Source of the DNA: Pseudobdellovibrio exovorus JSS
Lineage (GTDB): Bacteria > Bdellovibrionota > Bdellovibrionia > Bdellovibrionales > Bdellovibrionaceae
Length of the DNA: 64,000 nucleotides
Assembly (NCBI RefSeq): GCF_000348725.1
Contig: NC_020813.1
Coordinates: 124,001-188,000, forward strand
Direction: 5' to 3'
The first letter of the stretch is position 1, and every line of letters starts with the position of its first letter. The position numbers were made by a program, and so were the translations under genes. Shown piece by piece: positions 11,170 to 25,197 of this stretch. The notes under the pieces were generated by a model. The model had not been told where the DNA came from, did not search any database, and saw only the letters and a list, made by a program, of their open reading frames with translations.

Positions 11170-12666
11170 ATGAAGATGATGAAAAACTTGGCGTGTCGCC
11201 GTTGGATATCGGCTCATTTACCCCTAACTGCGTCTGTCTGCCTTTTGCTTTTAGCAGGATGTAATATTCAGCAAGAATCCAGTTTGCTATCGTCTAAGAC
11301 ATCGACCAAAGATGCTGTTACACGCACATTGGATGCAACGCCTTTTGCTTTCGACTTGGCTGTGGACACGATCTCGTACAACTCATGTGTGGGTGTGAAC
11401 TTAAATCAAAGCGGCATTCATGGAATTAAAATTGGTGTAAGCGAAGGCTTTGTGGATGCCAATGGCAGTGGGGCCGTTAAGGGCGGAATTAAATTGCGCT
11501 CGGACTTTTTACAATTTATCGCACAGAATGTTCAGCCGAATTATCCCGCTCCTACAGTGAGCTCATCGCAAATCCAGTATATATTAAAAAATTCAACAGC
11601 GAATGCAGATACGTACATTCAATATGCAGTTAGAACAGCCACAGACCTGAGAGTGGTGCCAGACACTATTCAGCCGTCAAACACACCGATGATGGTGCGC
11701 GATGGTGTCTACGAGGGTGTTCCCCTTGCCGAGGAACCACTTATTTCGCAGATGACAAAAGATTTGAAGTTCGGTCCGAACAAAACTGTTTTGTCTGAAG
11801 GGGCGCGTGTTTACAATATCGGAACATCGACGGCTCCGAAAGCTTTGGAAGCGAGTTTTGGCTATTCGAATATCATTGACGAAACTTTTTCGGCGGATGC
11901 CGCTGCCAATGATGGTCAAGGGGCCGCAGAAGAATACTCGGATAAAGTCAGAGCTAAATTTAATACAGGTACCTATTTGCTGACACAGACTTTTGGGAAT
12001 CCTTTAGCGGCAGATACGACTGGGTCCGATAGCACAGGATTAAACTCACCTAAGCGTAAAGTGGCCACTGATTTAACAAAGGCCTATGGCCGTGGATATC
12101 AACTTTCTTTTGTGACTAAAAATGCCGGTTACTCGAGCTGGAGAAAAAACGTTCTGAATACAGTGGTGGAACGAGATCTGGAAACGGGCCAACAAGTAGC
12201 AGGTGTTTCGTGGACCTGTGAAAATGTGGTCATTATGAAAACCAACGAATTCAATAATAAAAAAATAGATCAGCCAGCCTGTTCCCAGTTAACGGCGGCA
12301 GATTTAACAAACGTCAATGTGGCGAAGCGAGTGAAAAACCTACGCCGTCATTATTCTGAAGCTGACTGGGGCGTGGGGTTTTTCTATCCAAAAAATTCCG
12401 CATATAATCCTGCAACACGAACCGCACAGCCACTTTGTATCGTGAATAAGCAAACAGACTGCTATTTGCCGACAACGGGGATTGTTGTGGGTTCTCCATC
12501 AGAAGATGTGGGTGTGCAATACGATACGACGCAAGAGTGTTATTTATCACGCGCTCCGAATATGGGTGTGACTTACGTTGGAAACAAAGTGGGTAATGAT
12601 GCACGTCGCTTGGGTCGCTGTCCGCAGTTTGCAAGCATTTGCATTAGAAGCAGTACAAGCTACTAG
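11170..12666 (+). CDS. Large lipoprotein of unknown function
   Basis: A 498-residue protein with a basic N-terminus, a hydrophobic stretch and lipobox LLAGC (Cys near residue 31), so probably lipid-anchored. The mature part is Thr/Asn/Ser-rich with several scattered cysteines, mostly in the C-terminal half (WTCENVV, QPACSQL, PLCIVNKQTDCYL, CPQFASICIRSS), suggesting disulfides. I recognise no domain. ATGs occur at codons 1, 3 and 4; the first is taken. A 31-base gap separates it from a probable outer-membrane barrel gene. Confidence 0.8.
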   Translation: MKMMKNLACRRWISAHLPLTASVCLLLLAGCNIQQESSLLSSKTSTKDAVTRTLDATPFAFDLAVDTISYNSCVGVNLNQSGIHGIKIGVSEGFVDANGSGAVKGGIKLRSDFLQFIAQNVQPNYPAPTVSSSQIQYILKNSTANADTYIQYAVRTATDLRVVPDTIQPSNTPMMVRDGVYEGVPLAEEPLISQMTKDLKFGPNKTVLSEGARVYNIGTSTAPKALEASFGYSNIIDETFSADAAANDGQGAAEEYSDKVRAKFNTGTYLLTQTFGNPLAADTTGSDSTGLNSPKRKVATDLTKAYGRGYQLSFVTKNAGYSSWRKNVLNTVVERDLETGQQVAGVSWTCENVVIMKTNEFNNKKIDQPACSQLTAADLTNVNVAKRVKNLRRHYSEADWGVGFFYPKNSAYNPATRTAQPLCIVNKQTDCYLPTTGIVVGSPSEDVGVQYDTTQECYLSRAPNMGVTYVGNKVGNDARRLGRCPQFASICIRSSTSY

Positions 12667-12697: not shown

Positions 12698-13528
12698 ATG
12701 CGAAAAATAATCCTATCATTTATTTGTGCAGTTAGTATTTTTTCAACAAGCACGTCGCTGGCGTATGTTGGCGCGGTTTCAACCGCAACGGGTGGTTCGG
12801 GCCGCGGAGCCATGGAGCCTGTTGATGGAGTCCTTCTTAATCCTGCGATTATTTCCGATTTGCCAAAGAAAAATCTTTCCGTGCATTACTCAGATAAAGA
12901 CTGGGCTTTAACTGTGGCAGATAATGGCAAAGAGGCGTACTTTCCAGCAGCGCTGGTGTTTCGTAGAACAGACATGGACCCGTTAACAACGCAGCAGTTG
13001 GGATTGGCTTTTGCGACGCCTCGTTATTATGGGATGACATTTGGTGGAACTATTTCGATGTACGATTACACGCACAAGATCACTCCAGCTCAAGAAGAAC
13101 AGTACAAAGTGGGCGTCTTGGATTTAGGGATGACGTTGGCGGTGACCTCGAATTTTGGCTTGGGCTTTGTGGCTAAAAAAGTAGGCTCTGGTCAGGCGGA
13201 TTTGCCCGAAGCGATGCAGGTACAAAAAACGATTTCATTGGGGATGAGCTACACCTATCAGAACTTTGCCCGCCTTAGATTTGATGTGGAGTCGGCTCCT
13301 GATAATAAAACAGACAAATTGGTGTATATGATGGGGTTGGAAAACTTCTTAAATGACTGGTTAGTCTTCAGATTGGGTTTCCAGAACAATAATGTGCTCG
13401 AAAAGGACTACTTCACAGCCGGGGTGGGCTTTGCGGGGCCTCAGTTTGGTGTCCATTATGCCTATATTAGCAATATAAAGGACAGGACCGAAAATAAGCA
13501 TCTGATTGACTTGAGTATTCCCTTTTGA
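12698..13528 (+). CDS. Probable outer-membrane beta-barrel protein
   Basis: A 276-residue protein with a signal peptide ending near SLAYVGA. The mature N-terminus (STATGGSGRGAMEPVDG then LLNPAII) resembles the FadL/PorV-type start with a GxGxA...NPA motif. The rest alternates short beta-strand-like segments, and the protein ends in LSIPF, a C-terminal aromatic as used in BamA-targeted barrels. Substrate or partner unknown. It may act with the lipoprotein encoded 31 bases upstream. Confidence 0.7.
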   Translation: MRKIILSFICAVSIFSTSTSLAYVGAVSTATGGSGRGAMEPVDGVLLNPAIISDLPKKNLSVHYSDKDWALTVADNGKEAYFPAALVFRRTDMDPLTTQQLGLAFATPRYYGMTFGGTISMYDYTHKITPAQEEQYKVGVLDLGMTLAVTSNFGLGFVAKKVGSGQADLPEAMQVQKTISLGMSYTYQNFARLRFDVESAPDNKTDKLVYMMGLENFLNDWLVFRLGFQNNNVLEKDYFTAGVGFAGPQFGVHYAYISNIKDRTENKHLIDLSIPF

Positions 13529-13826: not shown

Positions 13827-14942
13827 TTAAGCTTCTTCGACAAGTCCTTCAGGCATTCTGCCCGCACGGATATCACTGGCAAGAGCTTGATGTTCCGGAC
13901 AGCCGATGATTTCAAGAGCCTCTTCATAAGGGCGAGGATCAGGCGTTAGAATTTTAATCTTTTTCACATCTAGAATTTTTTGGTGGCTCTGCTCAAGGTC
14001 GGCGCGGTTGAGTTGTCCTTGTGCTACTGCTGTGACTAAGCTTTCGATGGCCATCGGCGGAGACTCTGGCTCGTTACAGTATAACAAGAGGTCATTACCT
14101 GCTTGCATTGCACGTACAGGGATTTGTTCGCGGTCGTAGTGTTTGGCCAAAGCTTTCATATCCAGATCATCTGTGATGATCAGACCTTTGTATTTCAACT
14201 CATCACGTAGCATTTTCTTCAAGAAAGTTTCAGATAAAGTCACAGGCCAATCGGGATCGACATTTTTAAATAAAATGTGAGCGGTCATCACCATATCGAC
14301 ACGACTGCGCAAAGCTTTGCGGAAGGGAACTAGCTCGACATCATTAAGGCGGTCCAGATTGGCTTCTTCCACAGGAAGTTCTTCGTGTGAATCGGCAATG
14401 GTGTGGCCATGACCAGGGAAGTGCTTCGCGCAGGATAAAACACCGGATTTGATATAACCACGTACAAGCGCTGAAGCCATTTTTTCAACTTGATAAGGAT
14501 CGCTACTGACAGCGCGGTCACCGATCACCGTGTTTTCAGGATTCGTGTAAACATCTATACACGGGGCAAAGTCCAAGTTGATACCGACGGATAATAATTC
14601 AGAGCCCATACGTTGAGTAAAATGAAAAGCGACAGTTGGTGCATCTAGATCGCCGATTTTTTTCAAAGGTGGCCATTGGGTGAAAGGTGGTTTCAGGCGA
14701 TGAACGCGCCCGCCTTCCATATCAATCCCAATAAATAAAGGGGCTTTGTCAGCCATCTGGTGACGTAGGGATTGTATTTCCGCGCACAGATCACGAATCT
14801 GTTTGGGCTCAATGCAGTTGCGTGCGAAAAGCACTACGCCGGAAATATTGTTTTCGACAATAAACTTTTTTTCTTCTGATGTTAATGTGGCGCCAGAAAC
14901 GCCAATCAACATATGCTGTCCAATCAATTGATGCATATTCAT
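13827..14942 (-). CDS. nagZ: Beta-N-acetylhexosaminidase NagZ (GH3)
   Basis: Removes GlcNAc from GlcNAc-anhydroMurNAc (peptides) in peptidoglycan recycling. Family motifs: GIDMEGGRVHR, the GINLDFAPCIDV block, KHFPGHG with the loop His in DSH (GHTIADSHEELP), and IITDDLDM with the nucleophile Asp. At 371 residues it is about 30 longer than E. coli NagZ, mostly at the C-terminus. No signal peptide is visible, consistent with a cytoplasmic enzyme. It follows the secreted-protein gene by 5 bases. anmK, murU-like and amgK-like genes lie 7-11 kb away. Confidence 0.93.
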   Translation of the reverse strand: MNMHQLIGQHMLIGVSGATLTSEEKKFIVENNISGVVLFARNCIEPKQIRDLCAEIQSLRHQMADKAPLFIGIDMEGGRVHRLKPPFTQWPPLKKIGDLDAPTVAFHFTQRMGSELLSVGINLDFAPCIDVYTNPENTVIGDRAVSSDPYQVEKMASALVRGYIKSGVLSCAKHFPGHGHTIADSHEELPVEEANLDRLNDVELVPFRKALRSRVDMVMTAHILFKNVDPDWPVTLSETFLKKMLRDELKYKGLIITDDLDMKALAKHYDREQIPVRAMQAGNDLLLYCNEPESPPMAIESLVTAVAQGQLNRADLEQSHQKILDVKKIKILTPDPRPYEEALEIIGCPEHQALASDIRAGRMPEGLVEEA

Positions 14943-15862: not shown

Positions 15863-15890
15863 TTGTTTGCAGGGCAAATCGGTTTAAAAT
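15863..15890 (+). promoter_or_regulatory. Possible sigma-70 promoter of the TadG-like gene
   Basis: TTGTTT (15863-15868) and TAAAAT (15885-15890) are spaced by 16 bp, about 40 bases before the ATG at 15930. Two to three mismatches in total make this plausible rather than certain. Confidence 0.4.
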
Positions 15891-15929
15891 AGAGTTTCTA
15901 GAGATAGCTTGGTTTTAGGGGAAGAAAAA

Positions 15930-18350
15930 ATGAACGTCGTTGACCAAACGAAATCGACTCAATCGGAATCGAAAGCGCGAGCTTCGCGCTTCGTGCTGAC
16001 ACGTCGAAATCAAAAAGGTCAGATGGCGATATTTGTGGCGCTGATTTTTCAGGTGATCTTTGTTTTCTTTGCTTTACTCATCAATGTTGGGCTGCTGATA
16101 CACCATAAAATTAATTTACAACAGTCAGCGGACCTAGCTGCTTACTATGGTGCCATGAAGCAGGCTGAAGTTATGAATGCCATGGCCCACATTAATTTTC
16201 AAATTCGCCAAAACTGGAAACTGCTCACATGGCGCTACCGAATTCTGGGAACGTTTGGGTTTCAAGGGGCTGGTTCCGGATCACAGAATTTCCCTTTTGA
16301 ACTTCTACCTGGGGGAGGATTTCAGTTTCGCGCTCGTACCGATGGGACTATAAATGGCCTTCAATGTGGCGATGGCTTAGGAGTGCAAGACATTCCGTTT
16401 TTTTGCGTGGGACATCCCGGCTTTTCAGGGTGGCCAGGAAATGAATCCGTTTGTCGTGTAAATTGTGAGACTTTTGGTGAAGCTCGAAAAATTGATAGAA
16501 TTCCAAAAGCAGGTGATGCGATTACTCCTGGGGGCGGAAATTTCTCTCGTGCAGCAAATGCATTCATTGCTCAAGCCAATCTGTCCAATGACACTCGCTG
16601 TGAAAATTTAGGGAAGTATGGCGCGATTACATTGGCGCGGTTTATGGCCAGTTATATTTATGAAAATCGCTACAGAACAAAAACAATAGAGATGCTAGCA
16701 AAAAATCTTTCTTTGCCAACGAATGAAATTCGAGACATAGAGGGTGAGCTAATTCTGGATGGCGTTAAAACGACATTTAAGAATAATTTAACCGAGGCGA
16801 ATCTGACGGGGTTAAATAATGATGTAGATAATAAGCTCGCAACATGGACAGGTCTTGGCAGTGGCGACCAATGTAAATTTAATGACGGGTTTTCTGGAAA
16901 AGAATTTTTAAAGCGGATCGAATTTGATTATATCAATTATTTTATTCATAACTGCCTCTCGTCAACGTTAGGTGGAGCCGCAGGTAGTTGGCAGTATAAG
17001 CCAGAGCCTGTCTATGGAGATGATCAAGGAATGGGGCCTGCTTTTGCTGGTGTACCACAAGAAGTTAAAGATATAGCTGCGACTTTATTGGGTGGCGGTG
17101 GAGCTGGAAAACAAAACCTACACACAGTCGGGTTCGAAAAAAATCCATATTGTGTCGAGTACTATGCGGTGAAAGCGACCACTGAACCGAACATTCCTTT
17201 CTTACCACTAAAGAAAATTAAGCTGCATGCGACAGCCGTGGCGAAACCATTTGGTGGTTCAATAGGTCCATCTTATGGACAGACATGGCAGCCGGGCGCT
17301 GAGCAATCGGCGATTATTGAAGACCCCGAACAAAATGTTCGCGTGGACAATACGTTGCCCTTCAGGCGAATCAATGGCGCAGAAGGTGTGAATGACATTA
17401 AACGAAGTGTTTACTATCAACCTAATTTCGCTTTGTTTGTCGGTGACCGAAAAGGCGTCCGAGACAATCGTTATATAGCAGCTTATCATGCAGCCTTAGC
17501 TGTTAGAAATATTGGTGGACCTACACCTGTGCAAAGTTTTACACCTAATCCCAATAACTCTGGTAAGTACGAAAATAGTCCTAGCGGTTGGCCTTCTTTA
17601 ACAGAGGACTGGAGGGGAATTGATGATCCTGAATCTAATGCGCGACCATACGATTCATTGGCAGGCCTAGATAGGGGAACTCGTTACCTTGAAATCAGTG
17701 CTATTGCTCCGAATCAGTTTGATTTGACATTTTATTCGATAGATCCGGACTTCTATAATAACTATTACAAAAAACTGTACAAGGGCTTTGAAAAAATAAG
17801 AAATACGACAGGTATTGGCCCTGATAATCGCGATCAATTGCGCGGAGACTTTGGAAATCGTGATATCGATCCTAACTTAACTACATCGCAAGTTGCAGAT
17901 ACAAAAGCATTCTCGGTGAAGGATCAAATTTTAATAAAGAATATTATTTTTAATGAGAGTGTCCCAGGTGGGGCGCCTTATGGAAGATACTCGGAAATTT
18001 TTAAATTTTTAGCATCAGTGCAATCTTCGTTACTGACCGGATGGACATTCTTAAACTTTTCTGACTATGAAACATTTCCAGACAGGCCTGTGGACACCGA
18101 AAACAACACGATGAGCTTTGGGCAATGTAATAATGCATGGAACAACACGCAGTCTGCATTGTCCTCTAATACATCAGAAGATCATTTTAAAAACCCAACT
18201 CATGAAGGGTTGCCTCCGGTTGCAGGGAACTGTGTTACAGGTGGACGTACAGGATACTCAGTTAAAATTGTTTCTCCATTGGTACTCAAACAAGGTAATG
18301 GCGGCGCCTTTTTAGAGAACCCGCTGCCATCTAGCTTTTTGAACTTCTAA
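15930..18350 (+). CDS. TadG-like protein with TadE/Tad-type N-terminus
   Basis: An 806-residue membrane-anchored protein. After a basic tail, residues 29-80 carry the pilin-like segment of Tad/Flp pilus TadG proteins: QKGQMAIFVALIFQVIFVFF, a single hydrophobic helix, then LQQSADLAAYYGAMKQAE. The rest is a large extracytoplasmic region with paired cysteines and no recognised domain. The ATG at 15930 follows AGGGGA; an ATG seven codons upstream lacks a site. No tad ATPase or platform genes are in the window. Two large secreted proteins follow, and the three probably act together. Confidence 0.75.
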   Translation: MNVVDQTKSTQSESKARASRFVLTRRNQKGQMAIFVALIFQVIFVFFALLINVGLLIHHKINLQQSADLAAYYGAMKQAEVMNAMAHINFQIRQNWKLLTWRYRILGTFGFQGAGSGSQNFPFELLPGGGFQFRARTDGTINGLQCGDGLGVQDIPFFCVGHPGFSGWPGNESVCRVNCETFGEARKIDRIPKAGDAITPGGGNFSRAANAFIAQANLSNDTRCENLGKYGAITLARFMASYIYENRYRTKTIEMLAKNLSLPTNEIRDIEGELILDGVKTTFKNNLTEANLTGLNNDVDNKLATWTGLGSGDQCKFNDGFSGKEFLKRIEFDYINYFIHNCLSSTLGGAAGSWQYKPEPVYGDDQGMGPAFAGVPQEVKDIAATLLGGGGAGKQNLHTVGFEKNPYCVEYYAVKATTEPNIPFLPLKKIKLHATAVAKPFGGSIGPSYGQTWQPGAEQSAIIEDPEQNVRVDNTLPFRRINGAEGVNDIKRSVYYQPNFALFVGDRKGVRDNRYIAAYHAALAVRNIGGPTPVQSFTPNPNNSGKYENSPSGWPSLTEDWRGIDDPESNARPYDSLAGLDRGTRYLEISAIAPNQFDLTFYSIDPDFYNNYYKKLYKGFEKIRNTTGIGPDNRDQLRGDFGNRDIDPNLTTSQVADTKAFSVKDQILIKNIIFNESVPGGAPYGRYSEIFKFLASVQSSLLTGWTFLNFSDYETFPDRPVDTENNTMSFGQCNNAWNNTQSALSSNTSEDHFKNPTHEGLPPVAGNCVTGGRTGYSVKIVSPLVLKQGNGGAFLENPLPSSFLNF

Positions 18351-18406
18351 AAACTTTATCCTTGAAAATACATCGTCTCATAATGAGTGTCTCAAACTGA
18401 CAAACT

Positions 18407-18433
18407 TAAGCTTTCTAGACCTACAGCCGATAA
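18407..18433 (+). promoter_or_regulatory. Sigma-28 (FliA) type promoter
   Basis: TAAGCTTT (18407-18414), an 11-bp spacer, and GCCGATAA (18426-18433). The enterobacterial FliA consensus is TAAAGTTT-N11-GCCGATAA. The -10 is perfect, the spacing exact, and the -35 matches at 6 of 8. The expected start is about 12 bases before the ATG at 18453, leaving room for the G-rich ribosome binding site. Confidence 0.75.
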
Positions 18434-18452
18434 GAAAACATAGGGGGGTTTC

Positions 18453-20774
18453 ATGCGAATCCAAAATCTCTTATTGCTATCTGTTTTGGTAAGCCTGACC
18501 GCAACTGTATTTGAAGCGAATGCTCAGACTGTACAAATACCACCACAACCATTTACAGCTGTAGATGCGTGCCGCAGTTTTTACTTTGCAACACAAGCCC
18601 CCACAGCAAAGCCAACTGACCCTAGCAATATATTGGCGGCTAATAGATTCTGTTATTCATCGACGCAGATCATGTCAGCAACTGTTCCGGGATTTTGTGC
18701 TATTCAAAAACATTTAGGATTAACCACGAGCAATGAATGTACATCAATAAGTTCGATGACCGTGGCCGATCAAGAAGCGTTGGTTGCAGTTAAAAGAGTG
18801 CAACAACAAGCTGAGTCAGCACGAGTTTTAGCGGCAAATACAGCTGCAAATGCAGCCGCTACGGCGACTGTAACAGGTACTACATCTGGAACAACAGGAA
18901 CAACAGCTACGGCATCAGGCAACTCTGGCAGTGGTATGAATGCGCAAAATGCGCTGCAAATGATGCAGTTAATGGCGATGTATAATAACAACAATAATAA
19001 TGACAGTGGTCGAAGTTCGAACAGAGATTCTGGTGACCGCAATACAACGAATGACGATAGATTTGTAGAGACTTCTAATAATGATATCAGCAGCAATGAT
19101 GAAAGCAGAAGACAAAATAGTGATGGTGGTAGTCGCACCCGTTTAGATAGAGATGGCTCTGGCAGAGATAGCTCGAGAAATAGCGTACGACGAGAGAACC
19201 GCGATAGCGACAGTGGAGATGTTGAGGTAGCTGGTGATGCAGGAGGTTCAGACAGAGCTCCTGCCAGCGGAAATCTTGAAGGCACAGTGGACCAGCAACA
19301 AGAAGTAGCAGAGGCCGCTTTTAGTAAAAACTGTCTAGATAAAGCGACCTGCAACTCCAAAAAAGTGAATATGGATAGTAAGCAGGACATCCCGGATAAA
19401 GAATATGACAAGATTGTAAAAGAAAAAGCGAAGACTATTGAAAATGCGGAAAGTAGTGTAGAGGCCTTAGCTACGTCACTATCGACTTGTGCTCCAACCT
19501 CTTCGGGTAAAATGACGGCGTTGGCAAAAAAAATTAAAATTTATCATTCATCGAGAGACTCGTGTGGTCAAGCAGCGAAAAGAGCGGAATTTCTTTGTGT
19601 TGAAAGTCCCGGTGCAAAAAATGCAAAGCTGATTATGGATGTTGCAGGACCTGCATTGGCCATTGTGAACTCAACGCAGAAAATTTGTTCTGGAAGTGCT
19701 CAAGTGACAGATGCGGCCAGCAAAATTTTGATGTTTGCTAAAGGTGCGTGTGTGGCATCGAAAGTGCTGTGCGATACGACATGTACTTCTGCAGCTACAA
19801 AACTAGACGTTATTGGTACTGAGATGAAAAGCCTATCTAAGGCGGCAGAGGCAGAGATAAAACTAGTAATTTCAGAATCACTGGGTGCTATGTCTACGAC
19901 ATGTACACCTTTGTATCAACAGCTAACTCAAACAGACCAATTTGTCGGTCAAGTCGTTTCGCAAGAAAAGCAAGTGGCATCTGAAGGAGTAACCGCGAAT
20001 CTAGTAGCTCGCTGTGAAAATAAAATGAATGAAGTTTTGAGCTTCGGTGTGAATATCGCATCGACATTGGTGGCTCGCGATAAAGCTCGTGAATGTGCTC
20101 GTCAAACAGCGATGGACGGCGTTGGTGGTGAAGCTGTGACTTTGGCGGCTTACTGTGAGCAGCAAGCCAATGCTCAAACAGAGGTTTGTCAGTGTCAGAT
20201 GAACCCACAAAAAGAAGGTTGTGCGGGAGCCATTGCGACGTTCAATGCTGAAAATACAGATTTAGAATCAGATTTAGCGGGAACGAATATCCGTAATGGT
20301 GCGGGTCTATCGAACTTCGCTGGCGCGGGAGTTCCAAAAGGAGCTTCAAATATTGATCTATCAGGAGTTGGTGGCAATGGTTCTGGTTCTAATACTGCGG
20401 CTGATTTATTAAAAACAAACAGCACCGGTGGCGGAGCACCTACATCTGTAATGGGTAGTAGTGGTGATGCTGGTGGTGGATACGGCGGTGGTTCTAATGC
20501 TGCTGCTTCCAATGCAGAAGCTGCTAAAAAAGAAGATGACAAAAATAAACTGAGCTTCGGTGGCGCAGCGGTTTCAGGGGTGCAATCGCTAGGTACTGGA
20601 CGTGCAGGTACAGGTAATGGAGCTTTGACCAATCAACAAAAAGAAGCGGCTCAAAGAAAATTGGCTTCGGACCAAAGAAGTCGCGAAATCAGTACGGCTT
20701 CAGGGAAGTCAAACTGGGAAAAAGTACGCGAGCGCTACATCATGCAGACAAGCTCGTTTTTGGTTGGACAGTAA
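18453..20774 (+). CDS. Large secreted Cys-rich protein under FliA-type control
   Basis: A 773-residue protein with a signal peptide (cleavage after EANA, near residue 24). It has an N-terminal domain with several cysteines (about 35-110); a low-complexity Asn/Ser/Asp/Arg linker (about 175-270) including a run of six Asn; a helical, cysteine-rich central domain (about 295-600); a Gly/Ser/Asn-rich stretch (600-720); and a charged C-terminal tail ending SNWEKVRERYIMQTSSFLVGQ. I recognise no family. The site ATAGGGGGG precedes the ATG. The C-terminal tail resembles that of the next gene's product. Confidence 0.8.
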   Translation: MRIQNLLLLSVLVSLTATVFEANAQTVQIPPQPFTAVDACRSFYFATQAPTAKPTDPSNILAANRFCYSSTQIMSATVPGFCAIQKHLGLTTSNECTSISSMTVADQEALVAVKRVQQQAESARVLAANTAANAAATATVTGTTSGTTGTTATASGNSGSGMNAQNALQMMQLMAMYNNNNNNDSGRSSNRDSGDRNTTNDDRFVETSNNDISSNDESRRQNSDGGSRTRLDRDGSGRDSSRNSVRRENRDSDSGDVEVAGDAGGSDRAPASGNLEGTVDQQQEVAEAAFSKNCLDKATCNSKKVNMDSKQDIPDKEYDKIVKEKAKTIENAESSVEALATSLSTCAPTSSGKMTALAKKIKIYHSSRDSCGQAAKRAEFLCVESPGAKNAKLIMDVAGPALAIVNSTQKICSGSAQVTDAASKILMFAKGACVASKVLCDTTCTSAATKLDVIGTEMKSLSKAAEAEIKLVISESLGAMSTTCTPLYQQLTQTDQFVGQVVSQEKQVASEGVTANLVARCENKMNEVLSFGVNIASTLVARDKARECARQTAMDGVGGEAVTLAAYCEQQANAQTEVCQCQMNPQKEGCAGAIATFNAENTDLESDLAGTNIRNGAGLSNFAGAGVPKGASNIDLSGVGGNGSGSNTAADLLKTNSTGGGAPTSVMGSSGDAGGGYGGGSNAAASNAEAAKKEDDKNKLSFGGAAVSGVQSLGTGRAGTGNGALTNQQKEAAQRKLASDQRSREISTASGKSNWEKVRERYIMQTSSFLVGQ

Positions 20775-20804
20775 GTAATTAAAAGATTTTTTAAGGGGGC
20801 GAAG

Positions 20805-22097
20805 GTGAAAACAATAATTTTAGCTTTAGGACTGTTTGGCCAGTTTGCATTGGCTCAAACATCCACTATTCCGCGACCTACAATGCCGACTTATGCACAG
20901 TGTGCTCCACGTGATTCCAGTTGTGAGGCTTCTAATCGTGCATTACGTGATAATTACAATAATGAAGTCCGTGGTTATAATGAGGCTGTTCGGTTACAAA
21001 ATGAAGAGCTTCGTCAGTTACAAGCTAACCAAGCAACAACAGATGCTCAGGCAACAGCGGATGCTCAGGTTTTAAATAGCCAATCGACGCGTGCGAACTT
21101 ACAAGCCGCTGTTGAAACAAATAAAAAGGGCAGTAAAATATACGATACAGCAGCCGAGATTTGTAAACTCACGTCGGCAGCATTTATGGGAGCGTTCATC
21201 GCTTCGTGTGCTGGTGCGGGAGCTACATGTAATAAAGGTTTTTTACATAAGTCATTAGCTTTTGCGGCCTTTTCTGTTTTAGCAAAATCGCAATCTAAGA
21301 GTCATAAATCATCAGCCCATGCTGCATGTAATTCATCGAATCAGGTTTCAACAGTACAAGAAAATTGCGATGCGCTATTAGCTAATAATACTGGAACATC
21401 AACTGGTGGTACTACAAATACGGGAATCGTATGGCCGCAAGGGACGACAGAAGTGTTGCCTTTATTGCCTGACGGAACTTGTACGGGAACGGCTGAACAG
21501 TGCCAAACAATCGTGGATAATTTGCCTCCGGGAACAAACTTACGTGATGTGGCCACAGGTCTTTCGGGCTTTGCGAACAATGGTCGTAGCCCATTCACTG
21601 TGGACCCCAACACGGGCGTGGTGACAATGAAAGATGGTAAAAAAATCGATCCATCTGTTTTTGGTGACTCTAAAAAAATGGGATCTGCCTTAGGAATGTC
21701 TCCGATGGAAGCTCAAGCGCTTTTATCAGACCTGAACAGCAAAACTGGAGGCTTAAGCGGTAATGTGGCTGGAACAGGTGCCGGTAAAGATGGATCTGCG
21801 AAAAACTCTGGGATTTCTTCGGGATCAAGCATTGGCGGTAGCGGAACACAAACTATCGGTGTTCAATCACAGGGCCGTAACGGAGACTTAACAGATGCAG
21901 AAGGTACAGATGTGGCAGGTTCAGGTAAAGGTGATGGACTTGATGGTGATAAAGCCAATCGCAGTTATGCTTCAGCCGAAGGTCTTGTTAAAGACTTCAA
22001 CGGAGAAATGATCGGTGTTGCTGGCGATGATATTTTTAAAATGATGAATCGCCGATACAATCTAAAGGCCACACAAGATTCTTTTATTGGACCCTAA
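20805..22097 (+). CDS. Secreted Gly/Ser-rich protein, partner of the preceding gene
   Basis: A 430-residue protein starting at GTG (20805) with a strong AAGGGGGCG site. It has a short signal peptide (cleavage near ALAQ), a probable coiled coil (about 40-100, RGYNEAVRLQNEELRQLQ), a Cys-containing hydrophobic segment (about 115-185), a central domain, a Gly/Ser-rich linker and the tail IFKMMNRRYNLKATQDSFIGP. Function unknown. It starts 30 bases after its neighbour with no terminator between, so it is probably driven by the same FliA-type promoter. Confidence 0.78.
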   Translation: MKTIILALGLFGQFALAQTSTIPRPTMPTYAQCAPRDSSCEASNRALRDNYNNEVRGYNEAVRLQNEELRQLQANQATTDAQATADAQVLNSQSTRANLQAAVETNKKGSKIYDTAAEICKLTSAAFMGAFIASCAGAGATCNKGFLHKSLAFAAFSVLAKSQSKSHKSSAHAACNSSNQVSTVQENCDALLANNTGTSTGGTTNTGIVWPQGTTEVLPLLPDGTCTGTAEQCQTIVDNLPPGTNLRDVATGLSGFANNGRSPFTVDPNTGVVTMKDGKKIDPSVFGDSKKMGSALGMSPMEAQALLSDLNSKTGGLSGNVAGTGAGKDGSAKNSGISSGSSIGGSGTQTIGVQSQGRNGDLTDAEGTDVAGSGKGDGLDGDKANRSYASAEGLVKDFNGEMIGVAGDDIFKMMNRRYNLKATQDSFIGP

Positions 22098-22123: not shown

Positions 22124-23236
22124 ATGGCGCGCAATACATCGAACAAATTAAAAGTTATTGGAATTATGAACGGCACCAGTATAGATGGTGCCGATTTTGT
22201 TTTGGTTGAGGTCAACAAGAAAGACCTGACCTGTCGTCATTTACAAACGCAGAGCTTTAACTTTCCAAAAAATCTAAAACTAAATTTGATCAAAGCAGCC
22301 CAACATAAAATGCTCGTGGATGAGTTAGCACTGCTTCATCATGATCTCGGTCGTTATTATGCAAACTGTTTTAAAAAATTAAAAGGCGCTTTTAAGCAAG
22401 CTTCTTTGATTGGACTTCACGGGCAAACTGTTTTTCATAAAGGACAAATCGCAACCTTACAGATCGGGGAGCCCAGTTATTTAGCCGAGGTTTCCGGCGC
22501 CAGTGTGGTTTCGGATTTTCGTTCTGCTGATTTAGCATTAGGTGGGCATGGTGCACCCATTGCTACTTTTTTTCATCAAATTAACTTTGGAAGAAAAGGT
22601 AAAACTATCAGTGTGCATAACTTAGGTGGCATTAGTAATTTATCTTTAATACAGGACAGAAAACTTAAATTTGGATTTGATACTGGGCCAGCCAATATGC
22701 TGATGGACATGGCTGTTCGTGTGCACACAGCGGGAAAAGAAAGTTTTGATCGTAATGGCTCCCTTGCGAAAAAAGGCAAAAGCAATTCTGCCTTAGTAAA
22801 GCAGATGATGAAACATCGCTACTTTTCTAAAAAACCGCCAAAAAGCTGTGGGCGTGAAGAGTTCGGTGAAATTTTTTATTCTCAATATCAAAGACAACTA
22901 CATGAAATGAGTGTTGAAGATCGCCTAGCAACAGTGGCCGATATGGTGGCGCAAAGTATTGCTGTGGCCTACAAGAAGTTCTGCCCAGTTATGCCTGAAG
23001 AAATTATATTCGCAGGCGGCGGAGCAAAAAATAAATTTCTATTACAAAAAATATCAGAATATTTGCCGCAGGTTAAAATCAGCACAACAGAAGATTATAA
23101 TTGGCCACTTCAAAGTATTGAAGGAGCTGCTTTTGCTTGTCTGGCTGCTGCTAAGTATTGGGATAGACCATCTAATATTCCACAAAGTACTGGTGCTAAA
23201 CGCGCAACAAGCTTAGGAAAAATAACTCAAGTTTAA
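22124..23236 (+). CDS. anmK: Anhydro-N-acetylmuramic acid kinase
   Basis: Phosphorylates and opens 1,6-anhydroMurNAc to MurNAc-6-phosphate in peptidoglycan recycling. Family motifs: IMNGTSIDGADFVLV (ATP loop), GLHGQTVFH, the SDFRSADLALGGHGAP block with a catalytic Asp, SVHNLGGISNLS and FDTGPANMLMD. The 370-residue length is typical. The ATG at 22124 has only a weak upstream site. Its 3' end overlaps the convergent murU-like gene by 24 bases, so antisense interference between the two is possible. Confidence 0.94.
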   Translation: MARNTSNKLKVIGIMNGTSIDGADFVLVEVNKKDLTCRHLQTQSFNFPKNLKLNLIKAAQHKMLVDELALLHHDLGRYYANCFKKLKGAFKQASLIGLHGQTVFHKGQIATLQIGEPSYLAEVSGASVVSDFRSADLALGGHGAPIATFFHQINFGRKGKTISVHNLGGISNLSLIQDRKLKFGFDTGPANMLMDMAVRVHTAGKESFDRNGSLAKKGKSNSALVKQMMKHRYFSKKPPKSCGREEFGEIFYSQYQRQLHEMSVEDRLATVADMVAQSIAVAYKKFCPVMPEEIIFAGGGAKNKFLLQKISEYLPQVKISTTEDYNWPLQSIEGAAFACLAAAKYWDRPSNIPQSTGAKRATSLGKITQV

Positions 23237-24172
23237 GTGCTCGTGTTCAAAAAGAACAGAGTTTTGAATGAGTGGAAGTGATTTCAACAAATGAGGATCG
23301 CTGCTTTTTGAGATCACATTATAACCTTCAAGTTTATCCACAGAAATATCCACGGATTTAGAAACTAAAGATACACCGTCTTTATTTTGAATTAAGTCAG
23401 AGGGGTCATATTGATTGATGAAATCTAAAGTGTGGTCATCTAAATTTTGTAAAACAGTTTTAGTCGCTTCAAAAAAATCAAAAGCATTGCCTGTTTCGTA
23501 CCAATTGCAGCTCAGTTCAAAAGCTTCAACACGTTCGCTACCAAGGTGCTGAATGAGGATATCGTAGAAAATATTGCTTTCTTGGGATTCTGATATCCAA
23601 TTCAAAGCGCGTCGGTTTAAAAATAACATGCCGATGTAATGCCATGGTTGCAAGCTAGTGTCGGTAGGTCGGTCCTTGCCAATGTGGCGAACAGAGGCTC
23701 CTTCGCACCATATCGCTCCGAACTTTTTTCCAGCTTCTGGGTGTTTCATCACAATCAACGTCGCCAAATTTTTATTTTTCGTGTGCTGTTGGTAGGCTTT
23801 ACTTAAAAAATCATGATCTTCCGTAAAAAAAACCTCATCGGCATTGCTCAGCAGAATCGTTTCATCATCTGAAAATAGGCGAGAAGCTTTTTTTAAGCCT
23901 CCAGCACTGCCAAGAATTAAGGGATGTTCATCGGAAAACTGAATGCCGTTGAAGTAGGGTTGATTTTGATAAAGGGCATGGATCTTCTGAGGCAGGTGGA
24001 ATGTATTGACCACTAAGTTCTGTAAAGAGCTTTCTGATTTTAAAGAATTCAGAAAGCGAAATTGGTAAAGTCCTAAGGGTATATTCAGAAAAGGAACACA
24101 GGGTTTCGGATACTTTAAAGTCAGAGGTCTAAGACGGGTTCCCAGTCCGGCGGCAAGGAAAAGAGCATTCAT
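23213..24172 (-). CDS. murU: MurU-like sugar-1-phosphate nucleotidyltransferase
   Basis: Probable N-acetylmuramate-1-phosphate uridylyltransferase, giving UDP-MurNAc from MurNAc-1-P. The N-terminus FLAAGLGTRLRPLTLKYPKP is the nucleotidyltransferase signature. The LLSNADEVFF acidic pair and the ETGNAFDFFEA region fit the family. The specific MurU call rests on its 4-base ATGA overlap with an AmgK-like kinase, the known pairing. At 319 residues it is clearly longer than characterised MurU (near 220-240); the extra C-terminal part is unassigned, so a related sugar-phosphate specificity is possible. Confidence 0.75.
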   Translation of the reverse strand: MNALFLAAGLGTRLRPLTLKYPKPCVPFLNIPLGLYQFRFLNSLKSESSLQNLVVNTFHLPQKIHALYQNQPYFNGIQFSDEHPLILGSAGGLKKASRLFSDDETILLSNADEVFFTEDHDFLSKAYQQHTKNKNLATLIVMKHPEAGKKFGAIWCEGASVRHIGKDRPTDTSLQPWHYIGMLFLNRRALNWISESQESNIFYDILIQHLGSERVEAFELSCNWYETGNAFDFFEATKTVLQNLDDHTLDFINQYDPSDLIQNKDGVSLVSKSVDISVDKLEGYNVISKSSDPHLLKSLPLIQNSVLFEHEHLNLSYFS

Positions 24173-25197
24173 GGCAGGGTCTCGTAATTTTTTTCTAAAG
24201 CTCCAGCATCTAATAAAATGTTGTTCAGGACACTGTGTTGCGGAAAATGTGTTAAAGATTTCATTACACGCTTCAGAGTTGGCGTTAAGTATTTTAAATA
24301 ACGTCTATCTTGTCGTGTATTCATAAAGCTGGCAAAACTTCCACAGGCTTTAAAACATCTTTGCAATGATTGAAGCTCGTAGATTTGAAAGAAGCGCTCT
24401 TCACTGAAATTTTTCTGCTGACGAATATTTGAGTTCTGAAGGTAATAATCCATTAACTTTTCGGCAAAGGAATCACTCATATCCACGTAGGAATCTTTAA
24501 ATAAACTGACGAGGTCATATTGTGCTGGTCCTAAGCGGGCATCTTGAAAATCAATAATGATCACTTTATCCCGTTTAATCATCACATTACGTGAATGGAA
24601 GTCGCGATGACAAATCACTGTGGGCTCGTTAGCTAAAGTCGTACAGAAATCTTGAAAAGAATTTTGCAATTCAGTGGCTACAGATTCTGAAAGGTTCAGC
24701 TTAAGTAATCCTAGAAGTAAATGCTCTTTGGCGTAGTTCATTTCCCAAAGGAACTTTTCAACATCGAATCGCGAAACAGAAGCACTTGATTTAAGACTGG
24801 AGTTGCTGGCTCTATCATGGATTTTAATAAGCTCATTCAGTGTCTTGATGTAAAAACCTTCAGAAGCTTCTTGTTGCGAGCTCTCCCAGAATTTTCTTTC
24901 TAACGTAAGATCGCCAAGGTCTTCTAAAAGAAGCACACCAAGTGATTCGCCAATGGCGACCACTTCTGGAACTTGTACTTCGCAACTGGCAAAATGGCGT
25001 TGGACACTAATGAACGGATAGGTTTCAGCTTGGAAGGGCTCCCAGCACATCAGAACCCATGTTTTTTCGCCTTCAATCACACGATAGTAGCGGCGGGCTG
25101 AGGCATCCCCAGCCAATTGGATAACTGAAAAATCAGAACTTTGAATTTGTTTTGAAAGCCAAGCGCGTATGTCGGCCGAAATAATAACTTCCGTCAT
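24169..25197 (-). CDS. amgK: AmgK-like N-acetylmuramate/N-acetylglucosamine 1-kinase
   Basis: Aminoglycoside-phosphotransferase-fold kinase that in Pseudomonas phosphorylates MurNAc at C1. Features: GDASARRYYRV near residue 30 (AmgK hallmark), the VLLLEDLGDLTLE hinge, the catalytic loop CHRDFHSRNVM and the metal-binding IDFQDARLGPAQYDL. The 342-residue length matches AmgK. It is the first gene of the amgK-murU pair. Biochemistry is inferred from homology and pairing. Confidence 0.85.
   Translation of the reverse strand: MTEVIISADIRAWLSKQIQSSDFSVIQLAGDASARRYYRVIEGEKTWVLMCWEPFQAETYPFISVQRHFASCEVQVPEVVAIGESLGVLLLEDLGDLTLERKFWESSQQEASEGFYIKTLNELIKIHDRASNSSLKSSASVSRFDVEKFLWEMNYAKEHLLLGLLKLNLSESVATELQNSFQDFCTTLANEPTVICHRDFHSRNVMIKRDKVIIIDFQDARLGPAQYDLVSLFKDSYVDMSDSFAEKLMDYYLQNSNIRQQKNFSEERFFQIYELQSLQRCFKACGSFASFMNTRQDRRYLKYLTPTLKRVMKSLTHFPQHSVLNNILLDAGALEKNYETLP

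Follow-up and report, generated by a model that had tools for sequence, protein, structure and literature searches.

The DNA analysed here is a window of 64,000 nucleotides from Pseudobdellovibrio exovorus JSS (NC_020813.1, G000:C1:124001-188000), in which three consecutive forward-strand genes encode a Tad-like membrane protein (P1) and two secreted proteins (P2 and P3). P1 is probably the tip of a Tad pilus, with P2 and P3 as its attack-phase, tip-associated partners that grip the prey. An original prediction, made from the sequence, had put the trio forward as a candidate for an undescribed system, and it is better described as the tip module of a machine of known type. The module is conserved and belongs to the attack phase, and its tail-bearing secreted partners may be new. 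How predators such as Bdellovibrio grip their prey is a long-standing open question. The proposed model would join three findings not yet connected in the literature, a FliA-type promoter in use as a tool, an attachment gene annotated as hypothetical and a Tad operon without TadG, in one testable scheme, covering an order of bacteria with both epibiotic and periplasmic predators.

The genome searched is complete and comprises 2,657,893 bases, and all genome-wide promoter statistics were derived from one pattern search of it. Counts within the order refer to 141 genomes for P1 and to 140 genomes for the tail profile described below, counts within the phylum refer to 241 genomes, and synteny was read from 17 loci with a complete P1 neighbourhood.

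P1 as the probable missing TadG of the Tad pilus

Three starts are available to the open reading frame (ORF) of P1, namely 15863, TTG 15909 and ATG 15930, and the last of these, which has a good Shine-Dalgarno (SD) sequence and gives a protein of 806 aa (15930-18350, forward strand), is the more likely one. The Tad domain PF13400 was found in P1 with an E-value of 4.5e-8 and 33.7 bits against a curated Pfam cut-off of 22.3, which bears out the Tad-pilus-like nature originally proposed, and it was matched by all 18 aligned members of the P1 family. The AlphaFold2 (AF2) model of P1 (predicted template modelling score 0.76, mean predicted local distance difference test (pLDDT) 68, with many low-confidence regions) has a 79-residue N-terminal helix, another long helix and a beta scaffold, and the extra C-terminal region is large. 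Residues 28-106 (16011-16247, forward strand) were assigned as a pilin-like hydrophobic N-terminal helix from the AF2 secondary structure and the family alignment A2. The predicted processing site lies in the context KG/QMAIFVALIFQ, with G30-Q31 invariant in alignment A2, and this G/Q context resembles that of Flp1 of the TAD operon (RG/QGATEYILLL). At position 5 of the processed N-terminus Phe is present, where Glu stands in major pilins. Comparison of the P1 model with the PDB gave no match with an E-value below 1, and a second look yielded Z-scores of 3.5 or less; PDB sequence profiles returned nothing credible for P1, P2 or P3. TadG is usually, though not by definition, encoded next to tadE/tadF within a tad locus, which is not the case for P1. 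Judged by PF13400, the model and its conservation, P1 is a predicted TadG/KilN-like large minor pilin.

A TAD operon was located at G000:C1:2417267-2425066, 2.28 Mb from P1 (2.417 Mb vs 0.140 Mb), the corresponding distance in B. bacteriovorus HD100 being ~30 kb. Its products are Flp1 and Flp2, RcpC, a secretin, a TadZ-TadA fusion, TadB and three small proteins whose N-termini are pilin-like, and TadG is not among them. The TadE family PF07811 had no match in the genome, and TadV has been reported absent from Bdellovibrio (PMC5430801). Because P1 is the sole PF13400 match of the whole genome and the TAD operon is without TadG, P1 is best read as the missing TadG of the genome's single Tad (Flp) pilus. 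The earlier statement that tad ATPase and platform genes are lacking is thus correct locally and does not extend to the genome, and P1, which had been described as standing alone, is the only TadG of a genome with its Tad system elsewhere. P1 as a stand-alone system was rejected in view of this operon. TadZ-TadA was found in 235 of the 241 genomes of the phylum. The TAD operon of Bdellovibrio (bd0109-bd0119) is known to be FliA-responsive and to belong to the attack phase, its pilins are required for predation, and it is present in B. exovorus as well (PMC5430801). In the genome searched here, the same FliA-type layout as before P2 is found 55 bases before the start of flp1, and the flp1 promoter, the B. 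exovorus version included, responded to FliA in an E. coli reporter (Avidan et al., PMC5430801).

Two further observations concern Tad-related loci. A protein with RHS repeats and DUF6531 is encoded directly after TadB in the TAD operon (L158:12073-13758), and a similar-looking gene occupies the same place in HD100. Two divergent, exact FliA-type sites are located at L160:2656-3803 (G000:C1:2598629-2599803), one of which precedes a gene for a CpaF/TadA-type ATPase that has no other Tad genes beside it.

Large minor pilins at the tip of Tad-like pili have been described or predicted in other bacteria. The Tips of the Kil Tad-like pilus of Myxococcus xanthus (KilL/KilM/KilN) include, like P1, a large minor pilin with an N-terminal pilin helix and a big distal domain, and in this predator, too, some of them have their genes apart from those of the core machinery (PMC12075869). 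The make-up of the P1 model is as published for KilN4, a likeness by description only, and a Tip complex in B. bacteriovorus has been predicted from structure in the same study (PMC12075869). Unlike the Kil Tips, P1 comes from one gene with no KilL/KilM genes next to it and has two secreted, tail-bearing, non-pilin partners under a FliA-type promoter. TadG of Aggregatibacter and CpaL of Caulobacter are also predicted to be tip-located large minor pilins, with roles in adhesion or surface sensing (PMC12607857). CpaL has a von Willebrand factor A (vWA) domain with a metal ion-dependent adhesion site (MIDAS), whereas no vWA/MIDAS domain was found in P1 by Pfam.

The secreted proteins P2 and P3

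P2 (18453-20774, forward strand) has 773 aa and 20 Cys residues, and is composed of a low-complexity N-terminal part, a Cys-rich helical bundle, a Gly-rich linker and a C-terminal tail. P3 (20805-22097, forward strand) starts with GTG and has 430 aa with 9 Cys and 11.6% Gly; a helical Cys-containing part is followed by a small conserved region, a Gly-rich linker and a C-terminal tail. Gly-rich stretches thus precede the C-terminus in both proteins, and Sec-type signal peptides were recognized in both by inspection. Neither protein belongs to a Pfam family, no family was common to the 22 and 21 aligned members of the P2 and P3 families, respectively, and NCBIfam gave no credible match for either, so that their original description as Cys- and Gly-rich secreted proteins of no recognised family was confirmed. 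Modelling of P2 residues 290-773 resulted in a long helical bundle with 12 conserved Cys residues, a Gly-rich linker that is disordered and ~130 residues long, and a helix at the C-terminus. The head of P3 differs from that of P2.

The two proteins end alike, with an aromatic residue, then R-Y and then a hydrophobic end, and the tail is the most conserved part of P3. Searching the genome with the profile A1, the tails of P3 (DDIFKMMNRRYNLKATQDSF, 22005-22094, forward strand; E 1.7e-13) and P2 (SGKSNWEKVRERY..., 20685-20765, forward strand; E 5.5e-12) were the only convincing matches; as A1 was built from both tail kinds, this result speaks for the lack of a third tail protein and not for homology of the two tails. 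A genome-wide sorting signal was therefore ruled out for the tail. When the P2 and P3 tails were compared by hhalign, tail was aligned to tail with an E-value of 1e-4 and 58% probability.

The FliA-type promoter upstream of P2

A sigma-28/FliA-type promoter, TTAAG-N15-GCCGATAA, lies on the forward strand at 18406-18433 ahead of P2, with TTAAG at 18406-18410 and GCCGATAA at 18426-18433. Exactly 11 bases separate TAAGCTTT from GCCGATAA, as had been pointed out before. Transcription is predicted to start at about 18440-18441, which would leave the SD sequence (AGGGGGG) and the ATG at 18453 of P2 correctly placed. In Bdellovibrio, the consensus TTAAG-N16-CCGATA has been found in 92 of 140 attack-phase promoters (Karunker et al., PMC3627812), and the site before P2 scores 11/11 against it. 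The original -35 score of 6/8 is valid against the E. coli consensus and understates the site. Exact consensus matches occur once in the window, at this site, and seven times in the genome; one-mismatch sites are hardly commoner than in the reversed control (80 vs 66). When the upstream region was shuffled 2000 times, the score of the P2 site was never reached.

The promoter is also conserved in sequence and position in relatives, as 14 of 18 regions upstream of P2-type or first tail genes, HD100 and distant families included, carry a FliA-type site scoring >=10/13 at 41-52 bases before the start. P2-type genes away from P1 (L102, L107) are without such a site. A comparable site before P1 was found in none of the relatives, and P1 as a FliA target was ruled out on this account. 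The FliA-type site behind the earlier proposal that the trio is made in the attack phase thus precedes P2, and with it P3, and not P1, the three genes not being one FliA unit. On present evidence, FliA itself would drive P2.

Exact FliA-type sites were also noted before two other genes. One precedes a gene for a secreted thioredoxin-domain protein with tetratricopeptide-like repeats (L113:1501-3024, G000:C1:32383 onwards), which might be of use to Cys-rich proteins of the attack phase, P2 among them. The other precedes a SpoVG gene (L115:1501-1928, G000:C1:861540 onwards).

Probable counterparts in Bdellovibrio bacteriovorus HD100

One genome of the comparison, G004, fits B. bacteriovorus HD100: the published bd0108 breakpoint 97049 (PMC11323537) falls in its 101-aa ORF 96873-97178, which is followed in order by TadB/TadA/RcpA/RcpC (bd0110-0113). 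The P2 orthologue of this genome (134263-135723) has Gly at codon 256 and G at base 767, which the substitution c.767G>T (G256V) published for bd0149 requires. Its FliA-type site is the best among 44 genes checked; Gly256 occurs in just one more of these genes, and that gene is without a site of this kind. The P3 orthologue is the next gene, 8 bases downstream. Because of the Gly256/G767 match, the FliA-type site and the gene order, P2 and P3 very probably correspond to Bd0149 and Bd0150, respectively. By gene order P1 would be Bd0148. The argument for all three assignments is strong but indirect.

Pbd0149 is an attack-phase promoter that drives a reporter robustly in the attack phase (PMC12622784). 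Mutants with a transposon insertion in Bd0150 (Bd0150::tn) did not attach to prey, did not kill and caused no rounding (PMC6561027, Table 2), in agreement with the attachment role originally suggested, given that P3 corresponds to Bd0150. Since the P3 orthologue is the last gene of its run in HD100 and the next gene is convergent, polarity is an unlikely cause of this phenotype. Two host-independent isolates that form biofilms carried the G256V substitution in bd0149 (PMC11323537). Both proteins are on record as hypothetical proteins, only by way of a promoter part, a mutation of host-independent isolates and an attachment-defective mutant (PMC12622784; PMC11323537; PMC6561027). In the texts found on these genes, no link of Bd0149 or Bd0150 to the Tad pilus is made.

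Conservation and organization of the locus

P1 was detected in 132 of the 141 genomes of the order and in 219 genomes of the phylum, outside the order mostly via its first 200 residues. Single-sequence searches detected P3-like proteins in 73 genomes and P2-like proteins in 30, and genes with the C-terminal tail profile were present in 106 of 140 genomes. In all 17 loci, P1 is flanked by a divergent gene of the 258-aa type with NagZ close by, and on the opposite side tail-bearing P2/P3-type genes follow in 15 loci, the order P1-P2-P3 being kept in 14. The three ORFs are real and are kept in relatives, and the homologues share a neighbourhood across the order instead of being scattered, the outcome by which the original prediction would have been refuted. 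In 105 of the 112 cases where a tail gene shares a contig with P1, the two are within 10 kb of each other.

A second P2-P3 pair is present in genome G016 at L102:7458-10045, ~275 kb from the main cluster, without P1 and without a FliA-type site. Further tail genes unlinked to P1 were observed in G023 and G025.

Proposed mechanism and alternative explanations

In the proposed mechanism, P1 as a large TadG/KilN-type minor pilin would cap the predator's single Tad (Flp) pilus. FliA would switch on P2 and P3 in the attack phase, and both proteins would cross the inner membrane by Sec. Each would consist of a head, in P2 the helical bundle rich in Cys, joined to a similar tail by a Gly-rich linker that is long and flexible, and this tail would likely anchor both proteins at the P1 tip or at its base. 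Displayed at the pole, the heads may grasp the surface of the prey ahead of invasion or of epibiotic feeding. That P1 resides in the pilus, that P2 and P3 bind P1, that the tail does the binding and that FliA itself drives P2 we infer from the combined evidence. The tails of the P2/P3 type could, more tentatively, be a docking signal not described before, by which non-pilin proteins secreted via Sec are loaded onto a Tad pilus tip. If so, predators would have a set of heads that can be exchanged at the pilus tip, with a loose parallel in PilY1 of type IVa pili.

Several points weigh against the tip module. The missing FliA-type site of P1 means that the three genes are not one regulon unit. 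The placement of P1, P2 and P3 in the pilus comes from sequences and models, and the mean pLDDT is only 68 for P1 and 63 for the P2 model. The tails recognize each other weakly when separated, and single-family tail hidden Markov models miss each other (best E 0.27-0.46). P2/P3 genes are far from P1 in some genomes (G016, G023, G025), and the co-occurrence of P1 and the TAD operon is uninformative, since both are near-universal. Complementation has been reported for five mutants, and Bd0150::tn is not one of them (PMC6561027).

A less likely alternative is P1 as the Tad tip with P2 and P3 as independent surface or extracellular adhesins, released by type II secretion or held in the outer membrane, their tails being an unrelated export or anchoring signal. 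P2 and P3 would then merely be genomic neighbours of P1 in the same attack phase, as suggested by their own FliA-type promoter, by P2-P3 pairs without P1 and by the type II secretion system of B. bacteriovorus (PMC12622784). The close linkage of tail genes to P1 across the order is a point against it, and a general export signal should recur, yet no other protein of the genome convincingly has the tail. It is improbable that P1 is an inner-membrane anchored periplasmic scaffold on which P2 and P3 assemble into a structure for polar attachment that does not depend on the Flp pilus. Such a scaffold would be consistent with the encoding of P1 far from the TAD operon, the absence of the Glu5 of major pilins and the model without a clear PDB match. 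However, the TAD operon would then have no TadG, the processing contexts of P1 and Flp1 are alike, and known tip pilins such as GspK lack Glu5 as well.

It is very unlikely that P2 is an effector, for instance an alpha-helical pore-former, which the pilus tip would bring to the prey, and not an adhesin. Its helical part aligns with ClyA/AhlB/AhlC/XaxB-type proteins at Z-scores of 10-11.6, and tip-linked effectors have been proposed for the Myxococcus Kil system (PMC12075869). However, such Z-scores are within reach of unrelated long-helix bundles, designed bundles rank higher, Foldseek E-values were 0.02 or worse and the 12 conserved Cys residues would staple the bundle. The fold search with P2 returned generic helical bundles, ClyA-type proteins included, below the noise level for such folds. 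The reading of P1 as the pilus tip with P2 and P3 as its prey-gripping partners is preferred here.

Neighbouring genes

Genes of peptidoglycan recycling surround the trio, namely NagZ, AnmK, MurU-like and AmgK-like (13827-14942, 22124-23236, 23213-24172 and 24169-25197), and this setting recurs across the order. The AmgK-like and MurU-like neighbours score far below the NCBIfam cut-offs and are therefore regarded as distant members. Further upstream, a lipoprotein-like and porin-like pair without a Pfam family is located at 11170-12666 and 12698-13528, and it is kept nearby in several relatives.

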